From NCBI GenBank assembly GCA_017506865.1, contig JAFCMP010000514.1, positions 1,488,001-1,552,000 on the forward strand: a stretch of DNA of 64,000 nt. Direction: 5' to 3'. Below, piece by piece: positions 15,987-60,728 of this stretch. The translations under genes and the position numbers were made by a program. The notes under the pieces are model-generated. The model ran no database searches, was not told the DNA's origin, and saw only the letters and a list, made by a program, of their open reading frames with translations. This stretch comes from Tribonema minus. Its lineage: Eukaryota; Sar; Xanthophyceae; Tribonematales; Tribonemataceae. Position 1 is the stretch's first letter. Every line of letters starts with the position of its first letter.

Positions 15987-16017
<31 letters not shown>

Positions 16018-21574: not shown

Positions 21575-24500
21575 CTACGAGATGTCGGGCTGGCTGCTCG
21601 CTGCTGCTGCGCCCTCCTCTTGTGCTAGCGCCTGCGCGTGCTCGCGGTCCACGAGAATGTCGTTGATTGCGGCAGCGCTCGCCTCGGTGACCTCCTCGGG
21701 GCTCACCCGCAGCTCCACGAGCGTCGCGTTGGCGCGCACCGCCGCCTCCAGCGCGATGCCGACGTCCTGCGCAGCGTGCAAGCGGTTGCAAGTGTTAGAC
21801 GCTGCGCATCTGTGGGAATGCTCTCGTTGTGGCGCAGTTTGCTGCTGCTGCTGCTGCGACGTGGGAGCGCTCTTGCTGTGATGCGGTTGACTGCTGCTGC
21901 AGTGATGTACGTGGTCCCTCGCGCACTGAGAATAAGGGTGGAATTGGAATCACTTCTTGCTCAGTTAGGCCAATCACCCGCCAGTATTCATGCAGCGCCA
22001 TGTGTCTGATGAATATGGATCTCGCGCAAACAACGTGTTGTGAGAACTGCTTGAAGCTAATCAAATACAGCCCTGCTCTGCTGTAGTCAACATGATACCG
22101 CCATCAGTGTGTGCCTGATTTTGAAATCTGTGAGCATGACCTTGTGTATCTCGAGGTGAAGCACAAGGCACTGCAGCAGACAGCCACCGGAAACTATCAC
22201 GAAGTGGGAGGCTGGAAATTTGCGCACTTCTGATGTAGGTTGACCACACTGTCTAATCTACAATCCGTCAGCCACCGCTGCCTGAGCAGACGTATAAGGT
22301 TTCGAGGTGCTGGACTTGAAGAAGTCGTGGAGCACGTCAGCGCTCCGCAGCGCATCAGCAGCCCACCTGATTAAAGCGCTTGTTGCGCAGATCCACGCTC
22401 ACGAGCGCGCCACACCAGTACCGCAGTCTACAAGACATCTCCAGCGCATCGCAGCACGCAAGCGACGCGAAACGAGACACCCGGCACACAGAGCGCCCCC
22501 CCCCCCCCTCACTCACACACCTGGTCGAACCGGTTGTTGCGCAGATCCGCGCTCACGAGCGCCCCATTCCGCGCGAGCGCGCCCGCGATTGCGACGCCCG
22601 CCGCCGGCCCCAGCCGCGCATCCGACAAATCCAGCGCCATGAGCGCGCGGTTTACGGCGAGCGCTGACGCGAGGTGGTCGCCCAGGCGCAGCGCGGCGCC
22701 GGCAGCGCCGAGGGTGTTGCCAGCAGCGCTCAGCGAGCGGAGGCGCGCGTTGGCGGCGAGCGCGCGCGCGAGCGCGAGGCCGCCGCGCCAGCCCAGCTGG
22801 GGGGGGGAGGGGGGAGGGGGGGGGGGGGGGAATCAAGGGTTGGCGCTGCTAGGGCTAGGTGGAAAATTGGTGGAAATGCTCACGCAGTGCCGTCACGCCA
22901 GCTGTGTGGAAAGTTGGTGGGGTGCGCTCGGTGTGCGCGCGCGCGAGCGCGAGGCCGCCGTGCCAGCCCAGCTGGGGGGGGGGGGGGGGGGTTAAGGGGA
23001 GGGGGGGTGATCAAGGGTTGGCGCTACTAGGGCTAGGTGAAAGGTGGTGGCAGCACTAGGGATGTGCGGGGGGAGGAGGGGGGGGGGGGGTATGTGGACT
23101 GTTGATGGCGGCGCTCAGCATGTGTGGACGCATTGCCGTTCACGCCAGCTTGGCAGTGAGGACGGCGGTGAGGCGGTCAAGGCAGGTGTGAGCGAGGGGG
23201 GGACTCAATGCAGGTGCTCAACGCGGAGGTGTTAGAGAGGGGGGGTGGGGGGGTATGCGAAGACCAGGTTGTGATGCGTGTTAATATGCAGGCGGAGATG
23301 CCTTTCAATCCACTCTGAAGATCTAACAGCCATTGCGCCTGGCTTATCTGTAGCACGACAAGGCCTTGTATGTTCATTTGCCTTCCCGGCTCTGACCACT
23401 GTCAGGCCGCAGGCCCGCTTCCAGAACCACCCCAAAGTGGCTCAACCAACACTTCACACAGGCATTTCTCCACCCCTGTGAGCATGTAGGCGGCTCAAGT
23501 GCGTTAAAGTGGTGTTGTGCGTCGCTTCGAACTGCTATTGCTGCAGAATCAAACAAGCAAGAATAGACCGTGCGAACCATATGGTTGGGGTAGGTTGGAG
23601 GCCCACCGAATAAAACCAGGTGGACAGACAGAGGCTACGGTTAGGGTTAGAGCAATGATTTGTATGACTAGAGCCTTGCATGCCTGCTCCACTAGCGCAA
23701 GAATTCAGGACAACTGTGGTGAGCCTGGCTTCACCACCGAGCGATGAACCTTATGCACACTGGCAGGGCAGTCTTGCCCTTCTGCGGTGCCAGGAAACCA
23801 CACTCTCTCAAAAGTCAAGATGTGCTTTGAATGATGCTATGCGTTCAGTCAGCACATGAATTAAACCTCGTGGTTTGCGAAACGATGAAAAGCAACCTAC
23901 GCTTTGAAGAGTGCTACGAGTTCTTCCTGCGATTGAATGAGCACCTGATTGTGCGGTGTTCTGAACAGCACAACATGCTTTGAATATGGCTCGTGAATGA
24001 GTTCGGTCGGTCCGTGTATGAGAATCTGGATGTGCGAGATTCTGCAGAGCAACTTATGCTTTAATTATTGCTATGAGTAAGTCAGTCCGCGAGTGAGCAC
24101 CTGGTTGCGCGACATGATGAAAAGCAATGTTCGCTTTGAATAGTGCTATGAGTTCCGTCTGCGCCTGGAAGAGCACCTGGTTGTGCGAGATTCTGAACAG
24201 CAAAGTATGACTGGTGGCCAATAGGGTTAGGGTTAGGGTTAGGGTTAGGTTTAGGGTTAGTTAGGCGGCAGCGGCGACCAGTTACTGGTGGAAGGCAATA
24301 TGCGGCTACCCACACCTTGTCACCTAGAGCTCTCCGATCTTTTGATTGCTTTACATGCTTCAAATATGTCATAAATTCAGTCAGTCCATGAACAAGCACC
24401 TGATTGTGGTACACGTCCAGTTCCGTGAGCTAGCAGCTGGGCGAGGACAGCTTGGTGGCTAGCGCGACGGCAACAACATCGTCCAGATTCTGAACAGCAA

Positions 24501-27500
24501 ACTACGTTTTGGATAGTGCTATGAGTCCAGTCTGCGCTTGAATCAGCACCTGGTCGTGCCACATGCTGAACATGGATATTTGCTTTGAATAGAGCTATGA
24601 GGTCAATCTGTGCTTAAATCAGCACCTGGTTGTAGGACACGTCCAGCTCTGTGAGCTGGCAGCTGGCAGAGGATAGCTTGGTGGCGAGCGCGACGGCAGC
24701 GACATCATCCATGCCGTTGCCGGCCAGGCGCAGCGACTGCAGAGACCTGCAGCAGTAGGTGCCACAGACTTTGTGAGGCGGCGTGTACTGTAGATTGCAT
24801 ATGGGATTGGGGTCAATGATGAGTGCTGCAAAGCCTTCACTGTCGGCAGCCTGCAACATCGACATCATCCATGCCGTTGCCCGCCAGGCGCAGCGACTGC
24901 AGCGACCTGCAGCAGTATAGCAGACTCCGTGAGATGGCATGTCGCCACTGAACGAGTACATTGCATGCAGGTTTGGGGTCGTTGATGTGTGCTGCAAAGG
25001 TGTAAGGGGAGGCAGCGTGATGATGCACGCTTTACAGCATTGTGTCGTGCAGCGAGTCGGAACTGAGTCAGCAGCCTGCAAAAGCGACATCGTCCATGCC
25101 GTTGCCCGCCAGGCGCAGTGACTGCAGAGATCTGTGGCGTACGGGCGCAGAGCAGACTCAGCGAGATGGCATTTCACCGTTGAACGAGTAGATTGCAGGC
25201 GGGCTCGGGGTTCTTGAAGAAAGGTACGAAGGCTTCACAGGAGGCGGCATGATGATACACAGCTCCACAGCACTGTGTGTCACGCAGCAGGTCAGAATGG
25301 AGTCAGCAGCCTGCAAAGGCAACATCGTCCATACCGTCGCCTGCCAGGCGCAGCGACTGCAGCGATCTGTGGCATACAAGCGCACAGCAGACTCAGTGAG
25401 AGGACATGTCACCGCTGAACGAGTAGATTGCCCCCGGGTTTGGGTTTGTTGCAGGCTTTACAAAAGGCGCCATGATAGCTCTCGATGCCACAGCATTGTG
25501 CCACGCAGCAGATGACGTTGAGCAAGCAGCATACAAGAGCACAGCCATAGGTGTTGTAACCCAACACAAACCGCGACGGTGTTTGAAGACGGGGTATTGA
25601 TCAATCAACGTCGCAAGCGTCCCATAGAGCGACTGCGCCACATGGCGCAGGGCTTGAATATGAAACAAAATCTGACACACAATTCACAGCCCTGGGTTGC
25701 GCGCCAGGAACCATCATTGCGCTGAGGCGCGTCGCGAATGAGTTCACGAGCACTCCAAAGACGGAAACTTCCAAGCCCTTCTTCAACTTCAACTGCACGC
25801 GGGTGCGTCACCTGTCGCGCTCGAGCCCCTCCGCCGAGCTCCACAAGGTTGATGCGCTGCGTCGCGTGAAATCTTGAAGGACTCAAACGAGACAACCTCA
25901 AGTCCTTCTTGAAGTTACCCTGCTTTGGTGCGTCACCTGTTGCGCTCGAGCCCCTCCGCCAGGCTCGCGCAGCACTCCGCGGACAGCGCGTTGTCGCCCA
26001 GGGACAGGTGCCTTAGCGTCTCGTTCATGGCCATGGCGGCTGCAACGGAGGTGCCGTGCACGGGATGCGCCGTCGCTTCTGTGCCAAACTCGGGCCCCAT
26101 CTGCGCACGCGCGGTGCAGCGGCGGGAGGCAATATGGCGGCTAAGCATGGTCACAAGGAGAAAGCCAGCATACATTGGTGGTTATTTTGGAGCAGTTACA
26201 GATACTTCTTGCAGTCTGAGAGGTGACACTCATTGCGGTCCAACTCTGGATGCAAACTGCGAGGCCCCATGAAGTGGTCGCTTCCGTGCCGAAGTCGGGC
26301 CTTATCTGCGCGCGCGCGGCATAGCAGCGGCAGGCACAATGGCGGCTAAGCTTGATCGTAAGCAGAAAGCCAGCATACGTGGGTGGTGATCTGCTGAGAA
26401 TTTACAGATACTTCTTGCAGCGCGGTCGCTTCGGTGCCGAAGTCGAGCCCCATCTGCGCACGCGCGGCGCAGCGGTGGGAGGCTTTATGGCGGCTTAGCG
26501 CGATCACAAGGGGAAAGCCAACATAAGTGGGTGGTGATCCGCTGACAAAAGTTGCAGGTACTTTTGACAGGAATGCGATGTTGCTTTCGTGCCGAAATCG
26601 GGCCCCATCTGCGCGCGTGCTGCAGGTGCGGGAGGCACTGTGGCGATTAGGCATACATTCAAAGAGAAAGCCAGCATACGATGGTGGTGATCCGCTGAGA
26701 AGGCACAAATACTTATCGCAGAGGTGCGCAGCCGCTACCGTGCCGAACTCGGGCCCCGTCCGCGCGCGCGCGGCGCAGAGGCGGGAGGCACTGCGGCGGT
26801 CAGCGTCGCAAGGCGTGCTCACGAGTGTGCTTGGTACGTGCTTGTCATGCCAACTTCAATATCCTATGTGATGGTAAGTTTTGACTATGATGCAACGGCA
26901 TGGGCGCTCGGCGCTAGTACGGTGTCGGAGCAGGTTACGGGTTCTCTGAGACGACTGCAACCACCGCAGCATTGTGCTGCGGCTCACGGCATCTACGCGC
27001 GGCGTTTGACACAGGCAGGCGAACCTCAAGCTGGGGTTAGGCGCCGCTGCCGTCTCCACCTTTCGTATTACAGCGCGCTGCCGCACCTGGTTATCGGTGA
27101 GATCCAGCATGACGAGCGCGGCGTTGCGGCGCAGCAAAGAGGAATTTGCGATCTCAAACTGGAACTGATTTGTGCTGGCTGCGCCCTGTGCAACAGGGCC
27201 TTGCGAAGAGGCGCCCCAGAGCCCCGTCCTGCACTCTACAGACCTGCACCCCGTTGGCCGTGACCACACACGGCCTTGCCGTTTTAACTTCTGTTTGACT
27301 GCGCGCCGCCGCACCTGATTGTCGGTGAGATCCAGCGTGACGAGCGCGGCATTGCGGCGCAGCACGCAGACGACAGCATCTCACAGCGCTTCCACGCGTC
27401 GCTAGACAGGCAGGCAAATCTCAAGCTGGGGTAGGTGCCGTCGCCCTCTTTGCCTTCGTTCTTACTGCGCACCGCCGCATCTGATTGGCCGTAAGAGCCA

Positions 27501-30500
27501 GCGTGACAAGCGGGCAAGTCCCACGCAGCCAGCACCTTCGCCCCCCCCCCCCCCCCTCCCGCCTCCCCCCGCCCGCTGCGCACTACAAACCGTCACAACC
27601 GTCATGCTAACCCCCCCCCCCTCCGTCCCCCCAATTCCCCTGCAGCCTGTTTCAACTCCTTTTCTACTGCACACCTGATTGTCCGTAAGATCCAGCGTGA
27701 CGAGCGCGGCGTTGCGGCGCAGCGCCCAGAAGACGGCGTCGGCGCCGCGCTGCGCGAGCGCGTTGCGCGCGACGCGCAGGTGCCGCAGCGCCGCGGTGCG
27801 GTTGCGCAGCAGGCGCGCGATGGCGGCGCCCGTGTCTGCGCCGAGTCCCGTCGCGCTCATGTCCAGCTGCCGCGTGGACAGCCAGGCAGAGCGACAGCGC
27901 GTGTTGTGAGTCCAGAGCAGGAGATAGCGCGGCTTTTTTCAATTCCTCCGGGCATCGTATGACTCAACCTATGTGCAAAAGACTGCTAACACAGGTGCCT
28001 GAGCGCAGCTGTCCGGTGGTACAGCAGCCGCGCGATGGCCGCGCCCGCGTCCGCGCCGAGCCCCGTCGCGCTCAGGTCCAGCTGTCGCGTGGACAGCAAC
28101 GCGGAGCGACAATGCGTGCTGTGAGCCGCTGAAAATTGGGCATTGTGTGACTCGTGACGTGAGTGAAAGACCCATACTTCAAGTAGTACAGGAGCCTGGG
28201 CGCTTGCTGTCCAGTGGTGCAGCAGGCGGCGCGTCGGCCCCGTCGCGCTCACGTCCAGTGGCGCGGCGCAAGTGATGGCAGCGCTTCTGCGAGTCCAGAG
28301 CGGGAAGTAGTGCTGGTTTCCGTTCGGTATCATATATCTCATAACCTGAGCACTGCTGTTTGGTGAATCAGCAGGCGCGCGATGGCCGCGCCCGCGTCCG
28401 CCCCGAGCCCCTTCGCGCTCATGTCCAGCTGGCGCAGCGCAAGCAATGGCAGTGCTTCTATGAGTCCTGAGAGGAAGTTGTGCCGGGTTCCGCGTAATAC
28501 ATGACTCGTAATGTGAGTGAAACACGCGCACTTTGAATATTTCAGGAGCCTGAGCGTTTGCTATCCGGTGGTGCAGCAGGCCGCGCGTCGGTGCCATCGC
28601 GCCATGTCCAACTGGCGCAGCGCAAGCGATTGCAGCGCTGTGAGTCCAGAGCGAGAAGAGTGCGTGGTTTCCGCGGGTAATATAATTTGTGGTATGAACA
28701 AAGAACTGCTAACACAGGTGCCCGAGCGCTGCTGTGTTGTGGGTCCGCAAAGCTGTCATGCCTTGTTGCCTTGTTGTGTCATGCCGCGAAATGCCAGATA
28801 CATCAAGACTGCTCAAGTCGGGAGCGGTGCGGCGCCGCCGCTGCTCTGAATTGCGGCGCTCGAAGCTCTGATCCTAACCCTAATCCTAACGCTCACCTCA
28901 ACCCTAATGCTAACCTCAGCCCAACCCCTGACCCCTACCCCCCCCGACCCCAACCCACATGTACCGTGACGTTGTTCACCAGCGCCGTGCCGAGCGCGCA
29001 CCCCGCCGCTGCACCCCAGCGCGCTGCCGCCAACATCCATATGTGCTAGCCAGCTCGCATCCCAAGTGCAACCCAACCTCGAAACCCAACCCCAATGTTA
29101 ACTATTAAATCGACCCTGACCTAATTCGCATCCCTCAACCCAGACTCACGTGCACCGTGACGTCGTTCACCAGCGCTGCGACGAGCGCGCACCCCGCTGC
29201 CGCGCCCAGCGCGTTGCCGCTGACATCGAGACGCGTCAGCCGGCACGGCCGCGCTGCGCGCCCGCCCCTGTACAGGACCCTGAGCGCTGCTGCGAGCGCC
29301 GCGCCGGCCGTCGGCCCCAGGCCGCAGGCGCACAGGCTGAGCGATGTGACGGAGGCGCCCTCACCGAGCGCGCGCGCGAGCGCGGCGCCGCCGGCGTCGC
29401 CCAGCGCGCAGCCGCCGAGGTCTAATGTCTGCGAAGGGGGTTCGTGTGGGCGGCGCAGCGGTGGGTGGGTGTCGTGACGGTTTGATGCAGCGTCAGCAGC
29501 GGTAACCCTGCATGATTAAGTTTCATAATAGGCGGTGACGCCTACGGCGCCTTGCGTCAGCGCGCAGCCGCCGGGGTCTTGGGTCTGCGAAGGGGGCGCG
29601 CGCGTGCGAGAGGGGTGGGCGGTGGTCAGCGTAGCGGCGCAGCGCCGGCGCAGTTGTTGAGGATCCGATGTGAGCACTGACAGTTTTGCAGACGGTGCGT
29701 CGTCAGCGCGCTGGTGGTGCTGCTGCTGCAACTGCGGCTGTAGCAAGCACGTGTGCGGGAACAGCAGCTCAGCAAACTGCATCACCAATCATCGTCGGTG
29801 CTCAAAACAGGAGTGACTGGCCCCTGCTGCCGCAGCAGAAGCAGCAGCAGCAGCAAGCCACCAACCCCCCAACACTCATCAGCGCCGCTGCGTCGCTACA
29901 CCTACACTAAGTAGCCAACTCGCGCCGGCGCAGCGCCACGTAAACGCTTCGTCGCCCCACTGCCGCATCAGTCGACGTGCCCTGATCAAACGCGAGCGGC
30001 ATGTACGTACATGCAGAGTGAGCCCGCCGCGCGGCAGCAGCGCGGCAGCGAGCTCCACCGCTGCCCCCGCGCCCAGCGCCGCGTTGCCGCTCAGGTCCAG
30101 CTGCGCCAGTTGCTGAGCGCTGCCAACGGCGCGCATCAGCGCGAGCTCCGCGCCGTCGCCGCCAATCGCCGATCTGTCCAGGAACAGTCCCTGAACGCCG
30201 CCGTCGCCGCCGCCGCTGCTGCCCATGTCTTTGCCATTGACGCTGGCGCTTGTGTTGTCCCCGTCGCCGCCGCCCCCAGCGCCGCCAACGCCCTCGCGTG
30301 ACAGCATTGTGCCGCTGCCCGCTTGAAACCGCGCGGTTGAGGCACCGGGGATGTTGCCACTTGCGCTGGTCGACCATGCCATCGATTGAGCGCTGCTGCT
30401 GGCGGCAGCGGCGGCGGCGGCGGCGGCGCTGCCGCGCAGCAGATTGGCGACGTCCATGAGCGCGGCGCCGCGCACGGGGAGGCCGCCGAGGCGCAGGCGC

Positions 30501-39300: not shown

Positions 39301-40210
39301 GTGCATAATACTTCCGAGTGCAAACATTTTTGTCGGCTGGCAGAGGCACTGTCCACGGGCTGCGACTTGGACTTTACCTGCGACTCAGCACATTCGCACA
39401 ACTGGGCTTTGTTAACAATGACACAACGTTTCTCGAGCAAAGCTCCTCTGTAGCCCACTGGGAGAGTGCACAAACGCGGAGGTGTAAACTTGATTGATTT
39501 CTTTGGTCTGGCCCTGACGTACAAGTTCAAATGCACCCTGCAGCAGCGTCTGCCCGAATGAGGCCAGTGTGGTATTGATGCCAGGTTTTCCACGAAGTTG
39601 GGCCTTGAGCTACCTTCAACCAGTGCTGGTCACTGCCATCCAGTGTTTGCGCTCTGGGGATCAAATGCACGCGCATACGCATCTGCATTACAGTGTTCGT
39701 GCTACGTTTTGAAAACGCACCATGTGCTTCAAAGTCTGCTACGTACAGAACTGCCACGCTCTCCGTTCTCACCTGCCAAGCATCAATCAACGCCTGCTGC
39801 TGTCTTTGACATACCCCCAGCACGGGGGAAGGGTATATGCACGTGTTTGCAGGAATCACTTGGGCTACTGAAGAGGGGACGTACATGACGCCACGTAGAG
39901 AGCAAACGGCAATCAGCATGTAATTGCCGCATGCCCCAACAGCGTACGTTGAAGCATATACTTCTATACAATTGGTGCGATAGCGCCGTTCTGACCTGAT
40001 GAAGGCGTCGTGCAGCAGTGACAGCGTGGTGGAGGTGCGCATGGCATCGATGCTCAGCCCCCGCAGGGCCGCCCAGCGCACCGTCATCACCTGTCAACAG
40101 AGGGGCACAACAGCAGTATGTAATACTTCGAAGTAGTGGAGTGCGAGTGAGCTCTTGCCGATAATAATACTAGCCAATGTCCCCAAAGGCGCGCGCTGTC
40201 GCGCTCCCGG

Positions 40211-40252
<42 letters not shown>

Positions 40253-45748: not shown

Positions 45749-45808
<60 letters not shown>

Positions 45809-45816
45809 GGCAAAGT

Positions 45817-45851
<35 letters not shown>

Positions 45852-51800: not shown

Positions 51801-54800
51801 TGTTTCAATTGCAGTGTGGTGTAAACACGAACAATATCGAACCTGCAGCGGGAGGGAGCTGCACCACATATTGAAGTTCCAAGACCACTTGAATAGTTTG
51901 TGCATGCGTATCGCACCATGAAACCTCACAATTGCACTAACAGCATCTAGTCCTCTACATGCATGCACGTGAAAAAAAAAAACACGCATGCACGTGAAAA
52001 TAAATCACATGCATGCACATGAAAGAAGAAATCACAGCACCCAGGTGTACATTATCCCCTTTATAAATACAAGTCCATAAGTACATTATTCCCTCGGGCC
52101 TTCATAAATGCTAGTTCATAAATAAATATAAGGCCACAAGTACATATTTCCTTGCACTTGACCTCCGTTTGTCGCACCTTTCTAGCCATATCGTCTGTGC
52201 GGGGAATGCGGCATGAAGGTTTGCCTCTGCCGCGCTGTGAGAATCCCTGCAGGTGTCACCAAGAATAAATATGAGCGATTAATGAGGAATGTCCCAGATG
52301 GGCGCCGCATGTGGGCGGACTTAGCAGCTTTGATTTCAGTGTTTTCGGCAAAGTCGGGGCCAGAAACCAGGAACCAGCAGGGGGCACAGAAATGGGGGGG
52401 GGGGCAAGCACTTGGTAGACACTCTGCTTGACCACACGACAGCATCGACTGTTTTTGGTTTACATTGCACCCCGCTGACTTGTCTGAACCCTTGCTAGTT
52501 GCCAGGATATCCAGTGTCACCTACCGTAAGCCCTTGCATGCACCAGGCCGAACAACTTCAGGGCCTGACCCCAACCTAACCCTAGCCCTAACCCTAACCC
52601 TAACCCTAACCCTAACCCTAACCCTAATCCTAATCCTCCGGCTAACAGTTCCGCAAGATGCCGCCATTTTTGGCTGAGGTCCCTTTAAAGGCACAATACA
52701 AATGCCAGTGGAAGAGTGTACGTGGAGTGCTGGGCAAACGTCAATGCGGGAGTGCACGTGAGGCACTACTTGTACTTCAATTCTTGAGGCATGAGATTGT
52801 CTACATCTATTCATAGATACAAAAAACAGGTGCTAACACCAGAAACCCTACGGACGTGCTTCCATTTGATATTGACTCTTGAAGTACACCGCGCAGACGT
52901 TGCCCCCGCCTGGTGAAAGCTCTGCAGTGCGACACTGGCATCACCACATTCGCCTCTTTTGAGCGAACGCACAGCTGCTTTTCGGGCGCACCGTAACGCC
53001 GGGCCTCGATGCAATGATCGCGGCAGCATTCGCGAGTGCCGCACTTTCACACGCCGCGGCAGTTACACTTGTGGTGCCTGAGCTGTGGGGCTCACCGCAC
53101 CTGCTGGAAGCTCGGCGTTGCTGCTGCCGAAGGCGCGCACCGCGCACATAGCATCGCCAGCAGCGTCAAGACAGAACCGATAGAACTTCAAATCAAGTGA
53201 CGCGCCGCAGCGGCTACAATCTGTGTTTGTTTACTGAGCACTGGTGTGCTGTACTCACCGCGCCTGCTGGAACCTCTGCAGCGCGGCACCGCCGCTGCAA
53301 CCAAATAGAGCTCTGAATGAAGTGATACATGGACATGCCTGATTGAGCACTGGTGTGCCGTGCTCACCGCGCCTGCTGGAAGCTCTGCAACGCGGCGCCG
53401 CCGCTGCCGAACGCGCGCAGGCACAGGTGCGCGAGATACGCATTCAGCGCGGGCAGCCCCCCCAGGTAGAGCGCCAGCAGCACCGACGACAGCGCGTAGT
53501 TGCACAGACCGCTGCGGCTCGCGCAGCCCATCACGGCGACCGGCGCAGCGCCGCCCGGCAGCACCTGATTGGGTCAGGGTTTGAGTCAGGGGTTAGAAGT
53601 AGGGTATGATTAGGTTTAACATTAGGGCCAGGAGTGACTGCTGCAGCTTGTGCACGTTGTGACGGTGACCGGCGCAGCGCCGCCTAGCAGCACCTTGGGT
53701 GTTGAGGGTTGAGATAGTGTTTTTGTGGGCAGGTTTAGTTCAACGGCAACCGGCGAGGCAGCACCTGATTGGGTCAGGGTTTGGGTCAGGGGTTAGAAGT
53801 AGGGTTTTTCGTTAGGTTTAGGGTTGAGGTTAGGTGCGACCGCTGTGGCTGGCGCAGTCCATGATGGCGACCGGCGTGGCGCCACCTGGCAGCTTCTGAT
53901 TGGGTCAGGCTATTCAGGAGTTAGACTACAAGAAGGGTTTTGCACAGGTTTAGGTTAGGGTTAGGCGCGAGTGGTGCGGGCGGTGCAGTCCATGACGGCG
54001 GCCGGCGCGGCTGCGCCTGGCAGCAGTTGATTGGGGGATTGGAATCAGGGTCAAGCCTGAACGAGAATGTCAAATAAAATGCACAGGGGGCAGTTGGATC
54101 AGGCCGCCTTGAGTGGCGCACTCTGTTACTGGCGCCAAGTCGCGGCTCCTGATTGGGTAGCGCGAGTGCGTTTGCGCCATGACATTGTAGCTGAATCTTG
54201 ATGTTTTGTCAAATCATCAACAGGAGGTGGTCAACAGCGTGCTACAATCTGTGCCGTTCACCTGCACTCTTTACCGCGTGTGGGAAACCTGGACCATGGC
54301 GCCGGATTATATCATCATGGACGGGCAACATGATGTTTTGCATATTCACAACGTTGTACGGACTCAAATGCACACCAGCGGTCAAACAATAACGCAGCCC
54401 GACTCAGCATGACAAGCGCGCACCTGCGGCGGAAAGGCCGCGTAGTAGCACGCGATGTTGAAGTTGTGACGCGCGCGCACGGGGATCGCAGTCGTGTCGT
54501 TCCAGTCCACCATGGGCGACAGCGCTTGCAGGACGGAGACGCTCACGGGCAAGTAGATGATGCTCAGCACCAGCAGGCACATGCGGACCTGCAGACAAGG
54601 GCACACAACGCATCCCCAAGATTAGCAGGGGTTATCATGACTCCACAACATCTGAATGACTCCGACTTCGCTCCGTGGAGCTGTGACTCATGGTCTTACG
54701 ACTTGTACTCTGCTCCGGGGAGCTGGCACCAAGAAGCGGAGCTGGCGACAACTCCAAGAGCGGAGTCGGAATAACCCCTGGAAATGAGGTTTCCTTGCGC

Positions 54801-57800
54801 ACTGATAGCACCGTGGTTAGCTGCGTACGATCTCTTGCGCAGTGAGTTGAAGCTGTGATATCTATGGCTGGGCTCACATAGACAACCTCATCATGCCTTG
54901 AGCAGTTATATTTAGGGGTGCGCTGAAAACTTAACGCTTTGAATTGGCCAAGCCAACGCACAACTCGCGTGCGTTGGCTTCTGTGGAGGTGACCATGTAC
55001 GCAAAGTGCAGCCGTACTCAGTACATTGTGTTTCGGCGGTCCAAAACGCCAGTGGGGGCACCTCTGACCAAATGAAAGCACTACTCGTACTTTTATAAAA
55101 GTAAATACGCACAAAGAGGCAGGCCATACAACTGTGACCCCTTGTGGCCAATGATTCACGAGCAACGAGGCATCCCGCTTCAAACCACCTGCGACTACCT
55201 TGTGCAACCCTGCCTGTTGCAAATGCATCCACCTAATCTCCACTTACCTACACGCCTCATTGCTACGTGTACCTGCCTATTCTGCTTTGCGCATACCCAT
55301 GCATGCCTAAACCTACCTTGCCGCCGCCATCAGCCTGACCCTCATTCTGCACGACAAATTAGCATCGCGCCGTGCGTACCAAACTGAACCGACTACTGAA
55401 CCACCCCATCTACTCACTGAAGACCTGCACACCTGCGCCTACCTTCGTCGCCACCTCCGTGACCATGGTCTTGACAAAGACTCGGAGGCGTACCGTGCAG
55501 TGTCGCATAACCTAAGTGACATATAAGTATACCTACCTGCCTATGACTATGACTATACCTACCTATGCCTACGTCCATATCTACCTTCCCCGCCACCACC
55601 GCCCTGACCATGTTCCCAAATGAGTACTTGGCAGTGTGCCGCGCGGCGTCGCGCATACCCCAGGTGATATATACCTACCTACCTATGCCTATAGACCTAT
55701 ACCTACCCACCGTCCTAACCATGATGCCGAACGAGTTTGCGTCGTGCCGCGCGGCGTCGCGCATACCTAAGTGATATACACACTTACCTACCGATGCCTA
55801 TAGACCTATACCTACCCACCGTCCTAACCATGATCTTGAACGAGTACTTGTTGTTGTGCTGCGCGGCGTTGCGCATACCCCAAGTGATATATACCTACCT
55901 ATGCCAGCGCTCAAACGCACCTTTGCCGCCACCACCGCTCTGACCATGATCCCGAACGAGTACTTGGCGTCGTACCGCGCCGGCGTCGCGCATATTTAAG
56001 TACTGTTACCTAATATATACCTACTTACCTACCTACTCAGGCCTATACCTACCTTTGCCGCCACCACCGCCCTGACCATGATGCCGAACGAGTACTTTGC
56101 GTCGTGCCGCGCAGCATACTTTTGAAAGTGACATACCTACCTACCTACGGCCTATACCTACCCATGTGTACCGATACGCACCTTTGCCGCCACCACTGCC
56201 CGAACCATGATGCCGAACGAGTACTTTGCGTCGTGGCGCGCGGCGTCGCGCAGCCGCAGATGTATCGCGAACGACAGCGCGACCACGATGCCGCCGAGCA
56301 CTGATGCCAGCGCGGCCAGCGACACGGCGGCGCCCGCGACGACAGCCTCCGGGAAGGCGAGGTCGCCATATATGCGGAGCGCTGCCACGATGGCCGCCGC
56401 TACAGACCCCCAGGCGAGGTACCGCAGCAGCTGCGCGGGGAAAGGGGGGAGTGAAGGATAGGGGGCTGATGCGGTGGAAGCAGTTGATGTGGAGGGTTCA
56501 AGTTGAAGTGTGGGTTGAAGTGCGGTGAGGCGTGCGTGACAAAGTCGCCACGCAATAGAGGGCAGCGCCGCTGACAAATAGAATTCAAGGGTGCTCTGCT
56601 CACAGCTATGTCCACACTTGCTCAACGCTGCTTGCCGCTCCTCCACAGGGAAGTAAGCAAACTATATATGCTGAGGCGTACAAGATGGAGCTGAGACTGA
56701 AAAAATTGTCATGCACGGAGGCCAGGAGCTCTGACCATAAGCACATCACACAGAACTGCAGAAGAATTCAAACAAATCAATGACGCATTTTCTGCAGTGT
56801 ACATGTTTTGTACAAACCTCAACGTAAACGCAGTGTCTTCTGCGAAGCACTCACGCTGCGCGTGTACCAGTGCGTTAGGTACAGCCGCTCCCAGCAGCGG
56901 CACGCCGCGGGGTCCGCATAGTCAAGTACTTTGCAAACAAGTATTTTAAAGAATTCAACGACACACACAAAATCTGCAGTGTATATTTTTCAGACAAACC
57001 CCTATGTACACGCAATTTGATCCATGTACATACATAGTGATTGTCGTTGAGACACTCTCAGACTGTCACACGACATGTAGATTCCGTACAGCAAGCTTCA
57101 AGTTAGATGCCATTCATCTGGGCTTTTATGCGCCCTGAGCGAGAATTAATAAAAAGCACATACATAGCACTCACGCTGCGCGTGTACCAGTGCGTGAGGT
57201 ACAGCCGCTCCCAGCGCCGGCACGCCGCAGGATCTGCGTAGTCGGGCATCGACAGCACGTGCAGCAGCACAAAGACCGCAAACGCCGGCACCGCCGCCTC
57301 CGCCGTGTAGCCCACTACGGACCGGTAGTGCCAGAGGCTGAGGCCATCGGGGAGGGTGTAGCCGGCGCGATGCTCCGCCCAGCGCAGCAGCCACGGCAGC
57401 GGGCTGCAGCATGTACATGCGTAAGGACACACATGGTGCGTGAGCCGCGCGCGCATTTACGCAGCGCTTGGAGGCGCGGTGCTCCGCCCAGCGCAGCAGC
57501 CAGGGCAGCAGCCTGCGGCGGCGATGTACCATTTATTTCTTGAAATGGTACTGCTTGAGCTGACGAGGAGTGCTGTCTGTTGTTAACGATGAACAACAGA
57601 GAGAGTGCCCGTATTGGGAGTAGTACCTTGACCAGGAGCAACTTTTCCAACTTGTATACATACGCACGCGTGTCTGGTGTCGGCGGTACTTCAAAGTAAG
57701 TATGTGTGAAAACAGCGCCTGTCAACCTTGGACAACTCTTGTGACCTGACAAGTAAGAAACCCAGCGCAGCAGCCAGGGCAGCGGCGGCGATGCATATGG

Positions 57801-60728
57801 GCTTACATACGCACACATTTGGTGCATGACCTGTGCGCGCAATTGCGCAGCGCGTGAAGGCTCGCACTTGGTTCACAGACGACATGTTTATTTCTTTGAA
57901 CAAGAAACCGGTGCGCGGCAACAAGGGGGTCTAGGCCCCTCGGCGGCGACCAGCCAGAGGACCACGCTGAGGGACGCTGCATGCTGATGAGAAACAGCAC
58001 GGCACAGCAGCGCTCACCGCAACAAGGGCCTGCAGTCATCAAAGCGCCTCCTGCCGCGTCAAGGGAATTCTGTACTGCGGATTGCAGGCCCCCCTGCATT
58101 GGGCCAGCAGGACCTGACATTGTGGCCTAAAGGTTTCACATTGTGCAGGGCATGACATGGGACTTTGGAATGAAGCTTTGACTGAGGATTGTTGACAGCC
58201 TTCACCAGCTGCGCCTCTGCCACTTGTGTGTGCTTGAATCCAAGCATGGATGTCAAATGGTAGCCCCTCATGAGGTCTGCAGTATATTGGCCATGCAGGT
58301 CATGACTGGCCGGGGGTTTGAGGTTAGGGTTAGGAGGTCATATGACTTGCCAGTTCAGGCTGCGTCGCAGATTATCTGGTCTCTCCCAACACTTTCCTTA
58401 GGCACTTTTTCGCCCTTCCTTCTTCAGGCTTGAGAATTACACAAGATATCACTCTCGCTCTACACGCAATGCGTGTCTTCTCTTCCTCTGCATCGTGCTT
58501 GCCGCGATCCTCACTTTCGACACGGAGGTGATGCTCAGCAGCGTTGCTCGCTGCCACTCACGTGCGCGCGAACGGCGCCAGAGCATGGAGGTGATGCTCA
58601 GCAATGTTGCTCGCAGCCATCACTCACGTGCGTGTGAACGCAACCAGAGCATGGAGGTGATGCTCAGCAATGTTGCTCGCTGCCACTTACGTGCGCGCGA
58701 ACGTCGCCGCCCACGAGCTCCACCCCCACAACGCGGTGAACACGGGTGGCCATGAGTCCACCGGCACCTGCCGCGCCAGCCACAGCACCTGCAACGCAAC
58801 ATCGGTACAGTGCACTTGGAGTTAACCTTGAAGTACTTGGCAGTTGACGTTCGTCCCAGATCGCGGACCACGGAGCCACTTTTGGAAGTGGCACACAGCG
58901 TTGTTCAAGGTTATTGGCGGCATGCGCACGGTGCCGCGCCAGCCACTGCACCTGCGGCGCAATAATATTGGTGCACGGGAGCGTAATTGAGATTTTGAAT
59001 AAATATGCTTTGGAAGTTGACATGCTTTGAGAGTGTGTTTTGAGAGTGGATGTTCATTCCACAGCGGCGTGTGAAAGTTGAAAGTTGAAGTAATTTGAAG
59101 TTGAGGTTTGTCTCAGATTGCGGACCACAGCAGCACTGTCGGGAACGGCAGATGTGTTTGAGTTGGCTGCGTGCGCGCGTGAATAGAGCTGACGGCAGCT
59201 GCAGCTGCACTGTACTGCGCCGCCGATGTTGACAGCGTTGCCTTCCTCATCCATACGTAATGCGTGCATGCTGTGGACCAATCGGTTGCACTGCATGCAG
59301 TCACAGCACCACTCGGCTACCCGCTGCATAACGACAAAGGCAACTGTGGCAGCATCGCTCGCTTGCACGATGCCACAGGGAGCATGCGCCCGTTTCGGCA
59401 AAGTGCCGCTCTTGCACCAGCATCTGTTGCATACTTCAGACAATCAGCATTTTGCTCTGCGCTGTTTGGCCGAGCCCCACCGCAACGGTCCACGAAAGTG
59501 AGCAGAGGACGGGCGCTCCCCCCCTGTCATCTTGACGCTGGCATGCATGAACACAACTCCCCGCGCATGCGCCACCATACAGTTTGATTCGTGGCCAATT
59601 GCTGCAGCAGCGGCGACCACGGTCACTGGTGAAAGGCGCTTGCGACCAACCACACCTTAGCACCTAGAGCCCTACGATCGTTTGATTTGTGTCTATACCA
59701 ACCTACCCACCTGCAAGAAGTGCACCACGCGCTCCACCTTGAACCAGAGCGTCCCCTCCGCCGCTGTGCGCTGCCGCTGCCCCGCCGCAGCAGCAGCAGC
59801 AGCAGCGCCACCGCCTCCATCCTCCTCATCCGGTCCGCCCTGAGCGCCGTCAGCGCCGCCGCCCCCGCCGCCGCCGCCGCTGTCATCGCCCTCCGCTGAT
59901 GACCACGTAATGGCGGCGGCGAGCAGGGCCAGCGCTGCTTCCGTGGACTGTGCAGCGTGCCCATCCGGCGTGGTGTCTGGATCTGAGGGTCTATGACCGG
60001 GCTGCATTGATGCCGTGTCTGGCATGAAGACTGAGTGGCTGGTGTCGAGCGCTGCCGCCGCGACGGTCGCTGCGCCGGTGCCGTGCTGATCTGCTGCAGC
60101 AGGGGCATCGCGCGACAGAGTGCTGCCAAAAGCGTGGCGCTGGCTGCCGTTGTGGCTTCTGCTGCTGCGTCTGCGCCTCAACTCCTGCTGCGGGGATGCT
60201 GCCGCTGCTGCTGGCAGCTCGTGCTGCTGATGCGGAGCTGGTGGTGTACCAGCAACGGCGGCGTCAGCTGCAGTATCCGCGGCAGTGCTGGTGCTGGCGG
60301 ATGGGAGAAACTTCAATAGTGGTGACTGCTGATGTGGGGATTCAGCGCTGCCACGGTCACCTTCGTCGCTGCTGATACTGCCAGCTGCGTCATCTTGGCT
60401 TTCTGCAGAAGTATCGCTGTCGAGAGACTGTTCCTCTGTTGCGCCAACGACGTTTTGATGGTGCTCATGTTTTGTTCCACCAACATGCACGCCTGCAGCA
60501 GAGTCAAGGCTGGCGTGCACGTGTGTAGTTGAATGCTGACACTGCTGTTGCTGACCGCCATCATCTTCATCGTGAACCACGTACACCTTGGCCTTCTGCT
60601 TGTACTTTTTGATCCGCATAGCAATTGAGGTGGTCGCGTCCTTACATGTCTGTGACTTGTGCCTGAGGACAATACTGCAGGCGCCAAACTGCTGTACCAC
60701 AGCGTGCCTTGTGCACTCAATCACTTGG
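21575..60728 (-). CDS. Giant multi-exon gene: polytopic membrane protein with C-terminal leucine-rich repeats
   Basis: 31 exons, all phases compatible: 60728-59711, 58788-58691, 57403-57175, 56430-56182, 54588-54424, 53564-53368, 51119-50968, 49177-49008, 48028-47943, 46464-46324, 45430-45317, 44387-44282, 42855-42754, 41440-41291, 40090-39996, 38899-38809, 37887-37840, 37078-36821, 36387-36185, 35445-35275, 34589-34480, 33824-33631, 33088-32980, 31770-31406, 30544-30011, 29428-29150, 27866-27675, 26100-25937, 24746-24626, 22796-22521 and 21766-21575 (TGA). These total 6379 nt, about 2,126 residues. The true start is not found: the first listed exon opens at an acceptor (TGCAG|CCAAGTG), and the first ATG in it is 60619. 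All donors are GT except one GC (35274). The architecture suggests a membrane sensor or scaffold; I do not recognise a named family. The weakest links are the joins 53368/51119 and 50968/49177. A split into two genes cannot be excluded, although phases run through without a break. Confidence 0.72.
22362..22985 (-). repeat. Boundary copies flanking LRR exon 22796-22521
   Basis: A tail copy with donor (AATCAG|GTGGGC) lies at about 22362-22405; a head copy with acceptor lies at about 22940-22985. The head copy is preceded by its own G-run in the plus-strand view and shares 'aagggttggcgct' and 'gggctaggtg' with the intron next to the true exon. Confidence 0.8.
23940..24636 (-). repeat. Array of duplicated 5' splice sites after LRR exon 24746-24626
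   Basis: The true exon ends YNQ|GTGCTGATT. In the plus-strand view 'gcacctg(g/a)ttgt' and close variants recur near 23941, 24093, 24171, 24396 and 24545 before the real one at 24622. Most carry the same following intron text ('attctgaacagcaa', 'tagtgctatgag'). The 24396-24486 copy covers the whole second half of the exon but contains an in-frame TAG. Confidence 0.85.
24206..24352. repeat. Dispersed repeat R2, copy 2, interrupted by a telomeric tract
   Basis: Matches 8051-8160 and 59583-59690 on both sides. Between 'gtggccaa' and 'gcggcagcggcgacc' it carries about 44 bp of TTAGGG repeats (24222-24265) in place of the roughly 9 bp seen in the other copies. Confidence 0.8.
24690..25380 (-). repeat. 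Array of duplicated 3' splice sites and heads of exon 24746-24626
   Basis: The exon head, encoding SLQSLRLAGNGMDDVA, occurs at the true site (24694-24746) and again at about 24846-24912, 25083-25135 and 25316-25375. Each copy is followed by GTTGCAGG or TTTGCAGG instead of the rest of the exon. Periods are about 150-240 bp. The intron upstream of each copy is also related ('gaacgagta-attgca'). Confidence 0.88.
25803..26865 (-). repeat. Boundary copies flanking LRR exon 26100-25937
   Basis: One tail copy with donor (GCGACAG|GTGACGC) lies at about 25803-25840. Upstream, the acceptor plus head (GCGCAG|ATGGGGCCCGAG) is repeated four times in a direct array with units of about 145 bp: roughly 26275-26415, 26415-26570, 26570-26720 and 26720-26865. 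The intron part 'aaagccagcatac-tgg-ggtgat' travels with each unit. Confidence 0.88.
27080..28640 (-). repeat. Boundary copies flanking LRR exon 27866-27675
   Basis: Tail copies (LRRNAALVTLDLTDNQ|GTGCGG) lie at about 27080-27150 and 27310-27365, with a degraded one at 27477-27515. Head copies (LDxSATGLGADAGAAIARLL) lie at about 28010-28095, 28225-28270, 28375-28445 and 28560-28625. The 28010 copy keeps a good open frame; the 28225 and 28560 copies carry deletions. Confidence 0.9.
28960..29595 (-). repeat. Boundary copies flanking LRR exon 29428-29150
   Basis: A tail copy with donor lies at about 28965-29042 (GTACATGTGGG where the true site is CAC|GTGAGTC). A head copy lies at about 29540-29590, preceded by the same CCCTTCGCAG acceptor. 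Confidence 0.8.
30595..30710 (-). repeat. Head copies of exon 30544-30011
   Basis: The exon head (VQALCSALVDHPSLRRL) recurs at about 30644-30705, and a shorter piece at 30600-30620, separated by 'ggttagagttgaagtgtgca'. A head copy of the next upstream exon (31770) lies at 31855-31915. Confidence 0.8.
32760..34822 (-). repeat. Boundary copies around LRR exons 33088, 33824 and 34589
   Basis: 32760-32830 is a tail copy of exon 33088-32980 (GCAG|GTGGGG). 33440-33475 and 33519-33595 are tail copies of exon 33824-33631 in a direct array of about 108 bp. 34265-34330 is a tail copy of exon 34589-34480. 34732-34822 is a near-complete head copy of the same exon with its own acceptor. Confidence 0.85.
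35273..35274 (-). other. Non-canonical GC 5' splice site
   Basis: Exon 35445-35275 ends LADNR with AG|GCAGGG. Only this GC donor keeps phase 2 and joins the LRR strand to IGPEAGPALAQLL in the next exon. The nearest GT would break the frame. Confidence 0.65.
36640..36700 (-). repeat. Tail copy of exon 37078-36821
   Basis: Encodes HLAEACDLRPPRG...SRWAAYVPE followed by GTACACC; the true exon ends SRWAAYAPE|GTACTTG. Both donors are followed by the TTGAAGTTT motif. Confidence 0.8.
36821..41440 (-). CDS. Gene 4, helical linker exons
   Basis: Exons 41440-41291, 40090-39996, 38899-38809, 37887-37840 and 37078-36821, residues about 943-1156. The sequence is soluble and mostly helical (HRHALGLETGHEGVLLL, VMTVRWAALRGLSIDAM, AEVEAARWLMHHHPQLLSSE). 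The 16-residue exon GLLEMASTLLRLADEQ has perfect phase-0 ends. An ATG at 37042-37040 could be misread as a gene start, but the acceptor GCAG|GCGACC just upstream and the matching phases favour an internal exon. Confidence 0.65.
37146..37207. repeat. Long G-run followed by C-run
   Basis: About 20 G at 37149-37168 and about 12 C at 37195-37206 flank a 26 bp spacer. They could fold back, and are a likely spot for polymerase slippage. Located in an intron of gene 4. Confidence 0.7.
39096..39800 (-). repeat. Boundary copies around exons 38899 and 40090
   Basis: 39096-39130 copies the head of exon 38899-38809 with acceptor (CATGCAG|GGCGGAGGTGGAG). 39767-39800 resembles the tail of exon 40090-39996 with its donor (GGCAG|GTGAGAACGG against ATCAG|GTCAGAACGG). 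Confidence 0.65.
40210..40252. repeat. (CA)n microsatellite
   Basis: About 20 CA units in an intron of gene 4. Confidence 0.95.
40868..42490 (-). repeat. Boundary copies flanking exon 41440-41291
   Basis: Tail copies with donor lie at about 40935-41005 (AAG|GCATGT), 41045-41125 (AAG|GTAGGT) and 41150-41232 (AAG|GTATGT), plus a remnant near 40870. Head copies with acceptor lie at about 42374-42405 and 42449-42485 (GGTCCACC or GGTCTACC). The 41150 copy has lost one base and is out of frame. Confidence 0.9.
42618..42660 (-). repeat. Tail copy of exon 42855-42754
   Basis: Repeats GAAGACCTGCTCTTCTCCCAG|GTGAA almost exactly, about 130 bp downstream of the true donor. Confidence 0.85.
42754..57403 (-). 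CDS. Gene 4, membrane-spanning region exons
   Basis: Eleven exons from 57403-57175 to 42855-42754, residues about 373-942. Hydrophobic segments are at about 410-427 (AVPAFAVFVLLHVL), 454-470, 478-507 (AVSLAALASVLGGIVVALSF), 534-554 (CLLVLSIIYLPVSVSVLQAL), 608-632 (LSSVLLALYLGGLPALNAYL), 820-856 and 875-908. That gives roughly seven or eight candidate membrane helices. Between the two groups lie a basic segment (exon 51119-50968) and a helical charged segment (LLKWLRRVHNPDSALVVELR). A tryptophan-rich stretch (DPFDWRQPLWRR) precedes the later helices. The layout suggests an integral plasma- or endomembrane protein. Confidence 0.65.
43266..43505 (+). CDS. Unassigned open frame opposite gene 4, possibly a mobile-element relic
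   Basis: 79 codons in an intron of gene 4 on the opposite strand. Composition is unlike the local genes: less Ala/Arg, more His, Tyr, Trp and Asp (KYLETIHYDRLRHVHHLKET). I recognise no domain. It may be the remnant of an inserted element or chance. Confidence 0.2.
   Translation: MGDFGAMAEPQWSQVYAMGAHDISKQQRSLGKYLETIHYDRLRHVHHLKETNHKDWCEWSGMQPTDYRQSDFLAVAMSM
43540..43580. repeat. Interstitial telomere-type tract
   Basis: Degenerate CCCTAA repeats in an intron of gene 4. Confidence 0.85.
43590..44660 (-). repeat. Boundary copies flanking exon 44387-44282
   Basis: The exon tail (AAAALVAVTLAAAV|GTGCGTGC) recurs at about 43590-43650, 43765-43830, 43945-44010 and 44085-44150, period about 140-190 bp. 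The intron between copies repeats too ('ttctgctgccat', 'acattgcgcgctgctgcaa'). A head copy with acceptor lies at 44578-44640. Confidence 0.9.
45565..45850. repeat. CAG/CTG trinucleotide tract and adjoining head copy
   Basis: (CAG)n with few interruptions spans about 45718-45848 in an intron. At 45565-45598 lies a head copy of exon 45430-45317 with its acceptor (ATGCAG|CGCCAGCGCTCAG). Confidence 0.85.
46030..47050 (-). repeat. Boundary copies flanking exon 46464-46324
   Basis: Tail copy with donor at about 46030-46095 (LEQACLSLVAAVLGYRC). Head copies with acceptor lie at about 46595-46625, 46808-46892 and 47020-47055. The 46808 copy reads SCAVVDTAGLLRLVDPLDW, with five silent changes against one conservative change over this stretch. 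Confidence 0.88.
47740..47805 (-). repeat. Tail copy of exon 48028-47943
   Basis: Encodes ADYILTLARFECMHTL followed by a donor-like GAGTGAGTT; the true exon has ADYILALADFECMHTL. Confidence 0.8.
49740..50960 (-). repeat. Intron array after exon 51119-50968
   Basis: Tail and donor copies lie near 49870-49915 and 50765-50830, with a trace at 50496-50520. Between them 'actacttct', 'tggtatgacccctaactgct' and 'tagctacatgtacctg' recur many times in tandem. A telomere-type tract is embedded at 50461-50495. Confidence 0.75.
50461..50495. repeat. Interstitial (CCCTAA)n tract
   Basis: Five to six perfect CCCTAA units in an intron of gene 4. Confidence 0.95.
51140..52200. other. AT-rich island inside an intron of gene 4
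   Basis: About 1 kb whose base composition contrasts sharply with its surroundings, containing A/T runs and palindromic 'gcatgcacgtgaaa' repeats of about 24 bp at 51957-52030. No long open frame. It may be an inserted element; I found no clear terminal repeats. Confidence 0.55.
52572..52638. repeat. Longest interstitial (CCCTAA)n tract
   Basis: About ten CCCTAA units, perfect in the centre and degenerate at the edges, in an intron of gene 4. Confidence 0.95.
52903..54040 (-). repeat. Boundary copies flanking exon 53564-53368
   Basis: Tail copies with donor (ALQxFQQAR|GTGAG and variants) lie at about 52903-52940, 53088-53140 and 53255-53305. Head copies with acceptor (CAATCAG then a Pro/Gly/Ala-coding head) lie at about 53655-53700, 53745-53780, 53845-53905 and 53965-54035. 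Degenerate TTAGGG-like text lies between the head copies. Confidence 0.88.
54656..54770. repeat. Short inverted repeat
   Basis: Arms TCCGACTTCGCTC and GAGCGGAGTCGGA, about 85 bp apart, pair with one mismatch. It could be a small hairpin or MITE-like relic in an intron. Confidence 0.5.
55430..56120 (-). repeat. Six-copy array of exon tail plus 5' splice site
   Basis: Exon 56430-56182 ends AKYSFGIMVRAVVAAK|GTGCG. Tail copies with donors lie at about 55430-55508, 55582-55668, 55690-55765, 55808-55880, 55917-55995 and 56050-56118. They are separated by 'acctacctac' and 'tatacctaccc' text. This is the longest such array in the window. Confidence 0.92.
56830..57800 (-). repeat. Boundary copies flanking exon 57403-57175
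   Basis: Tail copy with donor at about 56840-56935 (DYADPAACRCWERLYLTHWY). Head copies with acceptor lie at about 57480-57525 and 57755-57800 (LLPWLLRWAEHRA). Over 23 codons the tail copy shows six silent changes and one replacement. Confidence 0.9.
57036..57160. repeat. Dispersed repeat family R1, copy 3
   Basis: Shares 'gattgtcgttgagacact', 'attccgtaca' and 'catctgggcttttatgcgcc' with copy 1. Here it lies just inside the 5' end of an intron of gene 4 and is antisense to that gene, whereas copies 1 and 2 are sense to gene 2. Confidence 0.85.
58520..58955 (-). repeat. Boundary copies flanking exon 58788-58691
   Basis: Two tail-plus-donor copies at about 58543-58590 and 58615-58640, in units of about 85 bp containing 'gagcatggaggtgatgctca'. 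One head copy with acceptor lies at 58918-58955. Confidence 0.85.
58691..60728 (-). CDS. Gene 4, N-terminal part: acidic low-complexity region and membrane-proximal exon
   Basis: Exon 60728-59711 starts with an ordered-looking basic stretch (VIECTRHAVVQQFGACSIVL, then MRIKKYKQKAKVYVV). It continues for about 250 residues rich in Asp, Glu, Ser, Gln, Ala and Gly, including a Gly run and an Ala run. It ends TLWFKVERVVHFLQ|GTGGGT. Exon 58788-58691 (VLWLARQVPVDSWPPVF...) follows in phase 0 and ends AC|GTAAGT. The aromatic content (WGWSSWAATFART) suggests the start of the membrane region. A 20-base micro-exon at about 61138-61119 (ACGGTGCTCGATATGTCAAG) has an acceptor, a donor and the right phase to precede 60728, but this is unproven. 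Confidence 0.68.
59583..59690. repeat. Dispersed repeat family R2, copy 3
   Basis: Bounded by tttgattcgt and tttgatttgt. It lies 20 bp downstream of the donor of exon 60728-59711. Confidence 0.8.

Follow-up and report, generated by a model that had tools for sequence, protein, structure and literature searches.

The host gene

The window, a 64,000-nucleotide stretch of the Tribonema minus genome, carries on its minus strand a 39-kb gene of 31 exons (21575..60619), traced as a chain of reading frames and by comparison with a homologue, P0001. The model was set by eye from frame, splice dinucleotides and homologues, and runs from 60619 down to 21575: E1 (59711-60619), E2 (58691-58788), E3 (57175-57403), E4 (56182-56430), E5 (54424-54588), E6 (53368-53564), E7 (50968-51119), E8 (49008-49108), E9 (47943-48028), E10 (46324-46464), E11 (45317-45430), E12 (44282-44387), E13 (42754-42855), E14 (41291-41440), E15 (39996-40090), E16 (38809-38899), E17 (37840-37887), E18 (36821-37078), E19 (36185-36387), E20 (35275-35445), E21 (34480-34589), E22 (33631-33824), E23 (32980-33088), E24 (31406-31770), E25 (30011-30544), E26 (29150-29428), E27 (27675-27866), E28 (25937-26100), E29 (24626-24746), E30 (22521-22796) and E31 (21575-21766). 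Together these exons form one frame of 6201 bp with no internal stop, and 29 of the 30 introns are bounded by GT-AG, the intron after E20 being GC-AG. GC donors are noticeably frequent among introns; besides the E20 donor at 35274, they occur at exons 1 and 6 of the dynein gene L042 and at exon 1 of a second dynein, L043 (exons set by eye).

The predicted product, 2066 aa long, runs collinear with P0001 (2174 aa, EukProt), and 29 of the 30 exon joints align to this homologue under the rule that 14 or more of the 16 residues around a joint be ungapped. Hydrophobic stretches are seen by eye in the N-terminal half and leucine-rich repeats (PF13516) in the C-terminal part. Searched over its first 1519 of 2066 residues, the spliced chain gives matches to LRR families in Pfam; none of six single ORFs searched against Pfam gave a match, and no Rfam family reached its gathering score in the window. 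A protein search with the 2066-aa chain returned no near-identical entry among the 8000 best candidates, suggesting that a public model of the gene may be broken or missing. A second coding region, recognised by eye, occupies 61754-64000 on the minus strand and contains an intron at roughly 62.0-63.1 kb. It contributes no repeat pair to the self-comparison of the window, and TRF reports two short tracts of 30-bp period there.

Repeat arrays at exon ends

Repeats were accepted as local arrays if they passed a 3-mer entropy filter, spanned at least 45 columns, scored at least 46 bits and lay no more than 2 kb apart, low-entropy repeats being dropped. Local repeats cover 21% of the window, and three of three order-3 Markov versions of it contain no repeat pair. 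The host gene holds 34 arrays, 32 of which include an exon end, 19 at the donor side and 13 at the acceptor side. Arrays are borne by 22 of the 31 exons, in agreement with a preliminary description of this DNA that had put the number of exons with copied ends at 20 or more.

All of these arrays are listed here on the minus strand and, unless indicated, were delineated by array detection together with a segment search. At donors, copies of exon tail plus donor accompany E3 (56846..57243, period 320), E4 (55529..56252, five copies and a sixth by eye), E6 (53090..53419), E7 (49769..51008, enclosing a pair scored as intron-only at 50498-50874), E12 (43588..44331, four copies), E13 (42553..42789), E14 (40867..41382, four copies), E18 (36624..36902), E21 (34207..34506), E22 (33454..33697, period 108), E26 (28941..29227), E27 (27011..27740, three copies), E28 (25772..25966) and E29 (24377..24711). 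The E2 donor array (58521..58708) and the E9 tail-plus-donor array (47688..48007) were found by repeat-array detection, and tail copies complete the set at E10 (46032..46391), E23 (32754..33051) and E30 (22364..22566). At acceptors, copies of acceptor plus exon head accompany E3 (57364..57864), E6 (53507..54035), E10 (46394..47147, three copies), E12 (44348..44659), E14 (41417..42509), E16 (38871..39160), E21 (34503..34840), E24 (31738..31946), E25 (30493..30722), E27 (27777..28682), E28 (26062..26799), E29 (24697..25511, three copies) and, by repeat-array detection, E30 (22754..23050). A further array downstream of E29 (23877..24633, array detection) was scored as intron-only, and by eye its units repeat the E29 donor motif.

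Copy number ranges from 1 to 5 per array, the highest being at E4. The range of 1 to 6 units originally given thus holds up to 5, the sixth being a weak E4 copy seen only by eye, and the unit length of 75-190 bp given with it proved too narrow: 31 of the 32 junction rows have periods between 63 and 418 bp and the remaining one a period of 959 bp, the median being 186 bp. Exon reach is short, at 24-92 bp among 55 exon-derived segments and 13-18 bp in the E2 array. At most 0.78 of an exon is copied, and no copy contains a whole exon. Under a stricter rule, 28 of the 60 splice junctions of the host gene are straddled by a repeat interval, compared with 15.1 ± 3.2 (maximum 25) upon rotation of the exons against the repeats; none of 2000 rotations reaches 28. 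More local repeat pairs lie to the left of the host gene, at 526-754, 6224-6684, 7027-7237, 9311-9624, 10731-11149, 13991-15062 and 15830-16044.

Polarity and anatomy of the repeat unit

A search of each exon against both of its flanking introns, at a threshold of at least 34 bits, gave the 55 exon-derived segments, which are distributed over 25 of the 30 introns. Their placement is strictly polar: 26 are exon tails lying downstream and 22 are exon heads lying upstream, with 7 internal segments and no head downstream or tail upstream. Tandem exon duplication copies whole exons, unlike the arrays of this gene, where none of the 55 segments reaches both exon ends; nor does any of the 29 segments from four other genes described below. 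These counts uphold the initial statements that whole exons are hardly ever copied and that ordinary exon duplication is not involved. Whole-exon duplication and mutually exclusive exons were likewise rejected, as no segment of either set is a complete copy with acceptor and donor.

The tandem nature of the copies shows in regular multi-copy arrays and was assessed by comparing the piece of intron that separates exon from copy with the piece lying past the copy. The two intron parts are alike at z ≥ 3.5 relative to letter shuffles in 27 of 32 junction rows of the host gene, the five rows below this level being the E3 acceptor side and the tails of E10, E23, E29 and E30, and in 15 of 20 rows of the four other genes. 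With homologous intron parts in 42 of 52 rows overall (10 of 52 lack clear likeness), most repeat units are therefore DNA-level tandem duplications that straddle a splice junction and include the adjoining intron, as the preliminary description had proposed. Exon sequence makes up more than half the period in only 1 of 32 host-gene rows and 2 of 20 rows in the other genes.

The arrays were also said to be unique to their exons and not to represent a mobile element of fixed sequence. Self-comparison of the window agrees, in that distant pairs (>1.5 kb) join no two exons' arrays, and an introner-like or mobile element was rejected on this basis together with a genome search restricted to 29-36 kb of the window, whose best candidates were for the most part short hits in a triplet-rich part of E25. 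The window does contain dispersed repeats at 80-81% identity (8047-8172/59579-59702, 9056-9173/57036-57160 and 50173-50396), and they are also shared with another locus, L022 (94%).

One case runs contrary to the tandem pattern. In the dynein gene L041, the tail of exon 1 recurs 198 bp downstream at 98.5% identity over 67 bp, and its intron flank is unlike (z 2.1). This most exact long pair is unlike what a fresh tandem duplication should give. A part of the stretch separating exon and tail copy (query 774-880, in minus orientation) has about 100 bp that recur at 83-94% in many parts of the genome. A dispersed repeat of about 215 bp (query 1885-2101) is also present in the introns of this gene, recurring at 90-93% in nine other places.

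Divergence and condition of the copies

Array pairs are mostly well diverged: 193 of 243 differ by 10-25%, and only 9 of 243 fall below 5% substitutions. Most copies are too diverged for the original breakpoints, whether blunt or with microhomology, to be read. A k-mer count for a breakpoint motif returned telomere-like, triplet-type and donor-like words and a few others; a satellite-like region, L015, was left out of this count, of the divergence histogram and of the coding-overlap test on unselected DNA given below.

Differences between exon and copy are unevenly distributed over codon positions 1, 2 and 3, at 69/918, 56/918 and 188/923 (7.5, 6.1 and 20.4%), as are those between copies, at 62/585, 57/584 and 131/586 (10.6, 9.8 and 22.4%). 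Among ungapped copies, 164 synonymous changes are observed versus 75 expected, 109 nonsynonymous versus 180, and 1 stop versus 5.5; gapped copies, left out of these counts and of the conserved-residue comparison below, include five frameshifting gaps. The third-position excess does not derive from CpG hypermutation, as it persists at non-CpG sites (4.9, 4.8 and 14.5%). Within the same hits, introns differ by 21.0%, positions 1-2 by 8.8% and position 3 by 21.4%. Since third positions are as diverged as introns, homogenisation is not evident, and gene conversion was rejected as an explanation.

We estimate that a dead copy of the same exon should give a ratio of position 1-2 to position 3 differences near 0.6, and the observed ratios are 0.33 in the host gene and 0.44 in four conserved genes. 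Synonymous sites have probably changed more on the exon side than a simple clock for dead copies would allow; an origin from a diverged allele or a faster synonymous rate would fit. Coding constraint on the copies themselves finds no support at conserved residues: nonsynonymous changes affect 42 of 356 residues conserved in P0001 and 58 of 402 variable ones (p 0.33, a comparison of modest power). PRP8 and dynein proteins should be under stronger constraint than the host gene, and their copies differ at 26/423 and 27/422 of first and second positions (53/845) and 60/417 of third positions, similar at positions 1-2 to the 125/1836 of the host gene. The lack of depletion at conserved residues, together with this similar rate, suggests that the copies are probably not retained for their protein.

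In the window, 24 of 31 tail copies carry GT and 20 of 22 head copies carry AG. The GT columns match their exon counterparts in 26 of 31 copies, within the 18-29 of 31 found for neighbouring exon columns, and the AG columns match in 21 of 22; no special donor retention is seen. In the four conserved genes, tail copies show GT in 6 cases, GC in 6 and CT in 1, some parent exons themselves using GC, and 12 of 15 head copies show AG. By eye, at the inner borders of copies in the window, tail copies are not regularly preceded by an acceptor, nor head copies followed by a donor. Alternative exons were rejected for want of such signals, and from their sequence the copies look like relics instead.

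Arrays in other genes and in unselected DNA

The assembly sampled comprises 158 Mb in 554 contigs. A PRP8 gene (L040) and three dynein heavy chain genes (L041-L043) were located with Pfam models and their exons set by eye, giving 24 exons and no stops in any of the four chains. These fragments yield 29 exon-derived segments (14 heads upstream, 13 tails downstream, 2 internal and none in the opposite arrangement), and 21 of 48 exon sides have segments. The PRP8 chain spliced over six introns and human PRP8 have equal spans of 589 and 589 residues, which argues that the exon ends are right and that the mRNA can do without the copies; the one PRP8 alignment displayed, to 9r8v_A, has no gap. The self-comparison proposed at the outset for the window and other genes thus reveals junction-straddling repeats in both, and arrays are present in five of six multi-exon genes with mapped exons. 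The exception is a small light-harvesting gene just outside the window (L045), which has no arrays. Spliced by hand, this gene encodes a protein 99% identical to P0005 of Tribonema minus across the whole query, the single visible difference falling at the hand-made splice, so that the DNA belongs to T. minus or its nearest kin. No local repeats were found at five of eight kinase loci (L001-L008).

Local repeats also occur in 17 of 20 regions picked by coordinate on mostly large, already known contigs, at a mean coverage of 13%, and are absent from Markov controls. In the 19 unselected regions used for the overlap test, 48 of 65 arrays touch a coding-like stretch versus 32.6 expected (p 5e-5), and 17 of 65 have no link to coding-like DNA as judged by a rough detector. 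The arrays had been introduced as running throughout a giant gene; this is true of the gene itself but not peculiar to it, given PRP8, the dyneins and the coordinate-picked regions. As far as sampled, the feature is genome-wide, and it is unusual in its density and its restriction to splice borders.

The survey of loci also turned up a block on contigs C90 and C179 (L007, L044) that is 95% alike and has long open frames on both strands. Differences in its kinase domain show a strong third-position bias (6, 1 and 32 of 258 each). The block is perhaps duplicated and possibly virus-derived; its interpretation as haplotypes was dropped.

Origin of the arrays

With a probability of roughly 0.57, the copies are relics of short tandem duplications of DNA that crossed splice junctions, their formation or survival being tied to exon-intron borders. 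Each event would duplicate a unit, mostly of 63-420 bp, lying across a junction and made up of no more than about 90 bp of exon end and a usually longer piece of intron. Were the first donor or the last acceptor of the resulting array used, the transcript would be unchanged and the extra copy spliced out with the intron, while duplications inside or over whole exons would alter the protein and be purged. The strict polarity would then arise because spliced-out junction copies are tolerated and exon-altering duplications are not. Copies would afterwards decay as non-coding DNA, with the exon remaining under constraint.

Random duplication with selection explains the polarity but leaves unexplained the near-absence of arrays away from junctions, since uniform duplication filtered by selection should place most arrays inside introns. 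An account without any border-directed process, in which duplications were random and uniform at a time when introns were short, or in which only exon-anchored repeats are now recognisable, would suit the concentration of divergences at 10-25% with few young pairs, as in an old wave. Introns with arrays are also longer than those without (median 1190, n=25, versus 921, n=5; Spearman 0.58, p 0.0007), and pairs of exon and copy should decay more slowly than pairs of intron sequences, biasing detection toward exons. Intron parts found without any exon letters are nevertheless nearly all at junctions: after masking of exon-derived letters, 36 intron-intron pairs are left, 30 in exon-touching arrays and 6 in the group at 23.9-24.6 kb, and with relaxed thresholds the array spans, which occupy 13560 of 30082 intron bases (45%), contain 65 of 75 near pairs, the other 10 being outside. 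Detection bias is therefore not the whole cause of the junction bias, and pure ascertainment was rejected as its sole cause. The median non-array intron core, at 711 bp, has space for whole units, and array-bearing and array-free introns overlap in length. On balance we judge the uniform account unlikely.

A source in a diverged allele or homologue, with unequal exchange or template switching that needs conserved exon ends for recombination and so generates the junction bias, would mean that exon and copy differed from the outset, in a coding-like manner in exons and freely in introns. It would account for the substitution pattern numerically: about 10% neutral divergence beforehand and about 5% per lineage afterwards fits introns at 21%, positions 1-2 at about 7-9% and position 3 at about 21%. 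The scarcity of near-identical arrays also speaks for it. Arrays of 3-5 mutually diverged units would, however, require several source alleles. Moreover, the best candidates in the assembly include no other, diverged version of the 29-36 kb part of the window, and a 4.9-kb dynein stretch finds there, again among the best candidates, other dyneins and dispersed repeats but no second copy of itself; the 5%-diverged C90/C179 block, with its long open frames, is uninformative on intron-bearing alleles. Such a source thus seems quite unlikely. That the copies are functional, as alternative exon ends, spare splice sites or decoys under selection, is improbable: the third-position bias, the single stop among ungapped copies and the frequent AG and GT dinucleotides in the window are what it would predict, but whole-exon copies and consistent inner splice sites are lacking, frameshifting gaps occur, donor matching stays within the range of neighbouring columns, and the tail copies of the four other genes are as often GC as GT, with AG in most but not all head copies. 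Nor are nonsynonymous changes depleted at conserved residues, and PRP8 and dynein copies are no more conserved than those of the LRR gene. Concatenated haplotypes or misassembled reads are scarcely credible as a source; the assembly does contain contigs with equal-scoring duplicates, but units are mostly 10-25% apart and in register with splice borders, and arrays extend to five of six mapped multi-exon genes and to contigs of up to 2.1 Mb.

Returning to junction-crossing duplication, the very small number of arrays in intron interiors means that formation (or survival) must be tied to borders, and biased formation at borders is most likely. As its repair route we infer breakage near borders followed by fill-in and end joining. 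A broader proposal, that a process in this xanthophyte lineage directs tandem duplication to borders, for example where co-transcriptional R-loops or sites bound by the spliceosome break or are nicked and then filled in, and that it has been a main genome-wide route of intron growth, is conceivable but doubtful.

Relation to known duplications

The basic event, a duplication crossing a splice junction, is known, and the density and border bias are the unusual part. In a potato RdRp gene, a single tandem genomic duplication across an intron-exon boundary created a new intron, as outlined in PMC4974935. The unit likewise crosses one boundary there, its splice signals being, by the same outline, mostly inherited from the parent junction. 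Unlike that single case of intron gain, many junctions are affected here, and skipping the copies would apparently leave the mRNA as it was. The gain of introns when an AGGT-bearing exon segment is duplicated (Rogers 1989 and Hellsten 2011, as cited in PMC4974935) shares with the present arrays a tandem duplication within a gene that is tolerated because it is spliced out. In the model as conveyed by that source, the unit is exonic and, by our reasoning, the intron would start with a copy of the downstream exon head and end with one of the upstream exon tail, whereas here the copied tail, carrying a donor of its own, is found downstream of the genuine donor. Copies adjoin their own exon in a splice-site order opposite to the Rogers model, old decayed cases of which would escape the search. 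Internal gene duplication is cited in the same paper (Gao and Lynch 2009), with duplications inside genes being common. At the DNA level, small tandem duplications can arise when Pol alpha-primase fills in broken ends that are then joined (PMC8355091); the abstract of that paper makes no tie to splice junctions, and for the present arrays this is a putative route. Among the openly licensed papers listed by literature searches, no title or abstract opening describes a genome with such a density of junction-crossing duplications, and none presents the Tribonema minus genome. The preliminary remark that no described system of this density is known is consistent with this but has to allow for single junction-crossing duplications such as that in PMC4974935.

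If splice borders are indeed favoured by tandem duplication, mutation gives introns an inherent means of lengthening from their ends, and exon relics in introns would then be a fossil record of that growth. For gene finding, the true exons are surrounded by fragments of exons, many of which keep their splice dinucleotides intact, and automatic models may err.

Telomere-like tracts

Telomere-like (TTAGGG)n tracts are scattered through the same DNA. Six lie in introns of the host gene (24227-24244, 37642-37653, 37795-37806, 43556-43567, 50465-50494 and 52586-52627) and none in its exons. Two further tracts are found elsewhere in the window (4566-4577 and 4862-4873), and such tracts are present in 8 of the 20 coordinate-picked regions. 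Interstitial tracts of this kind are possible footprints of break repair.
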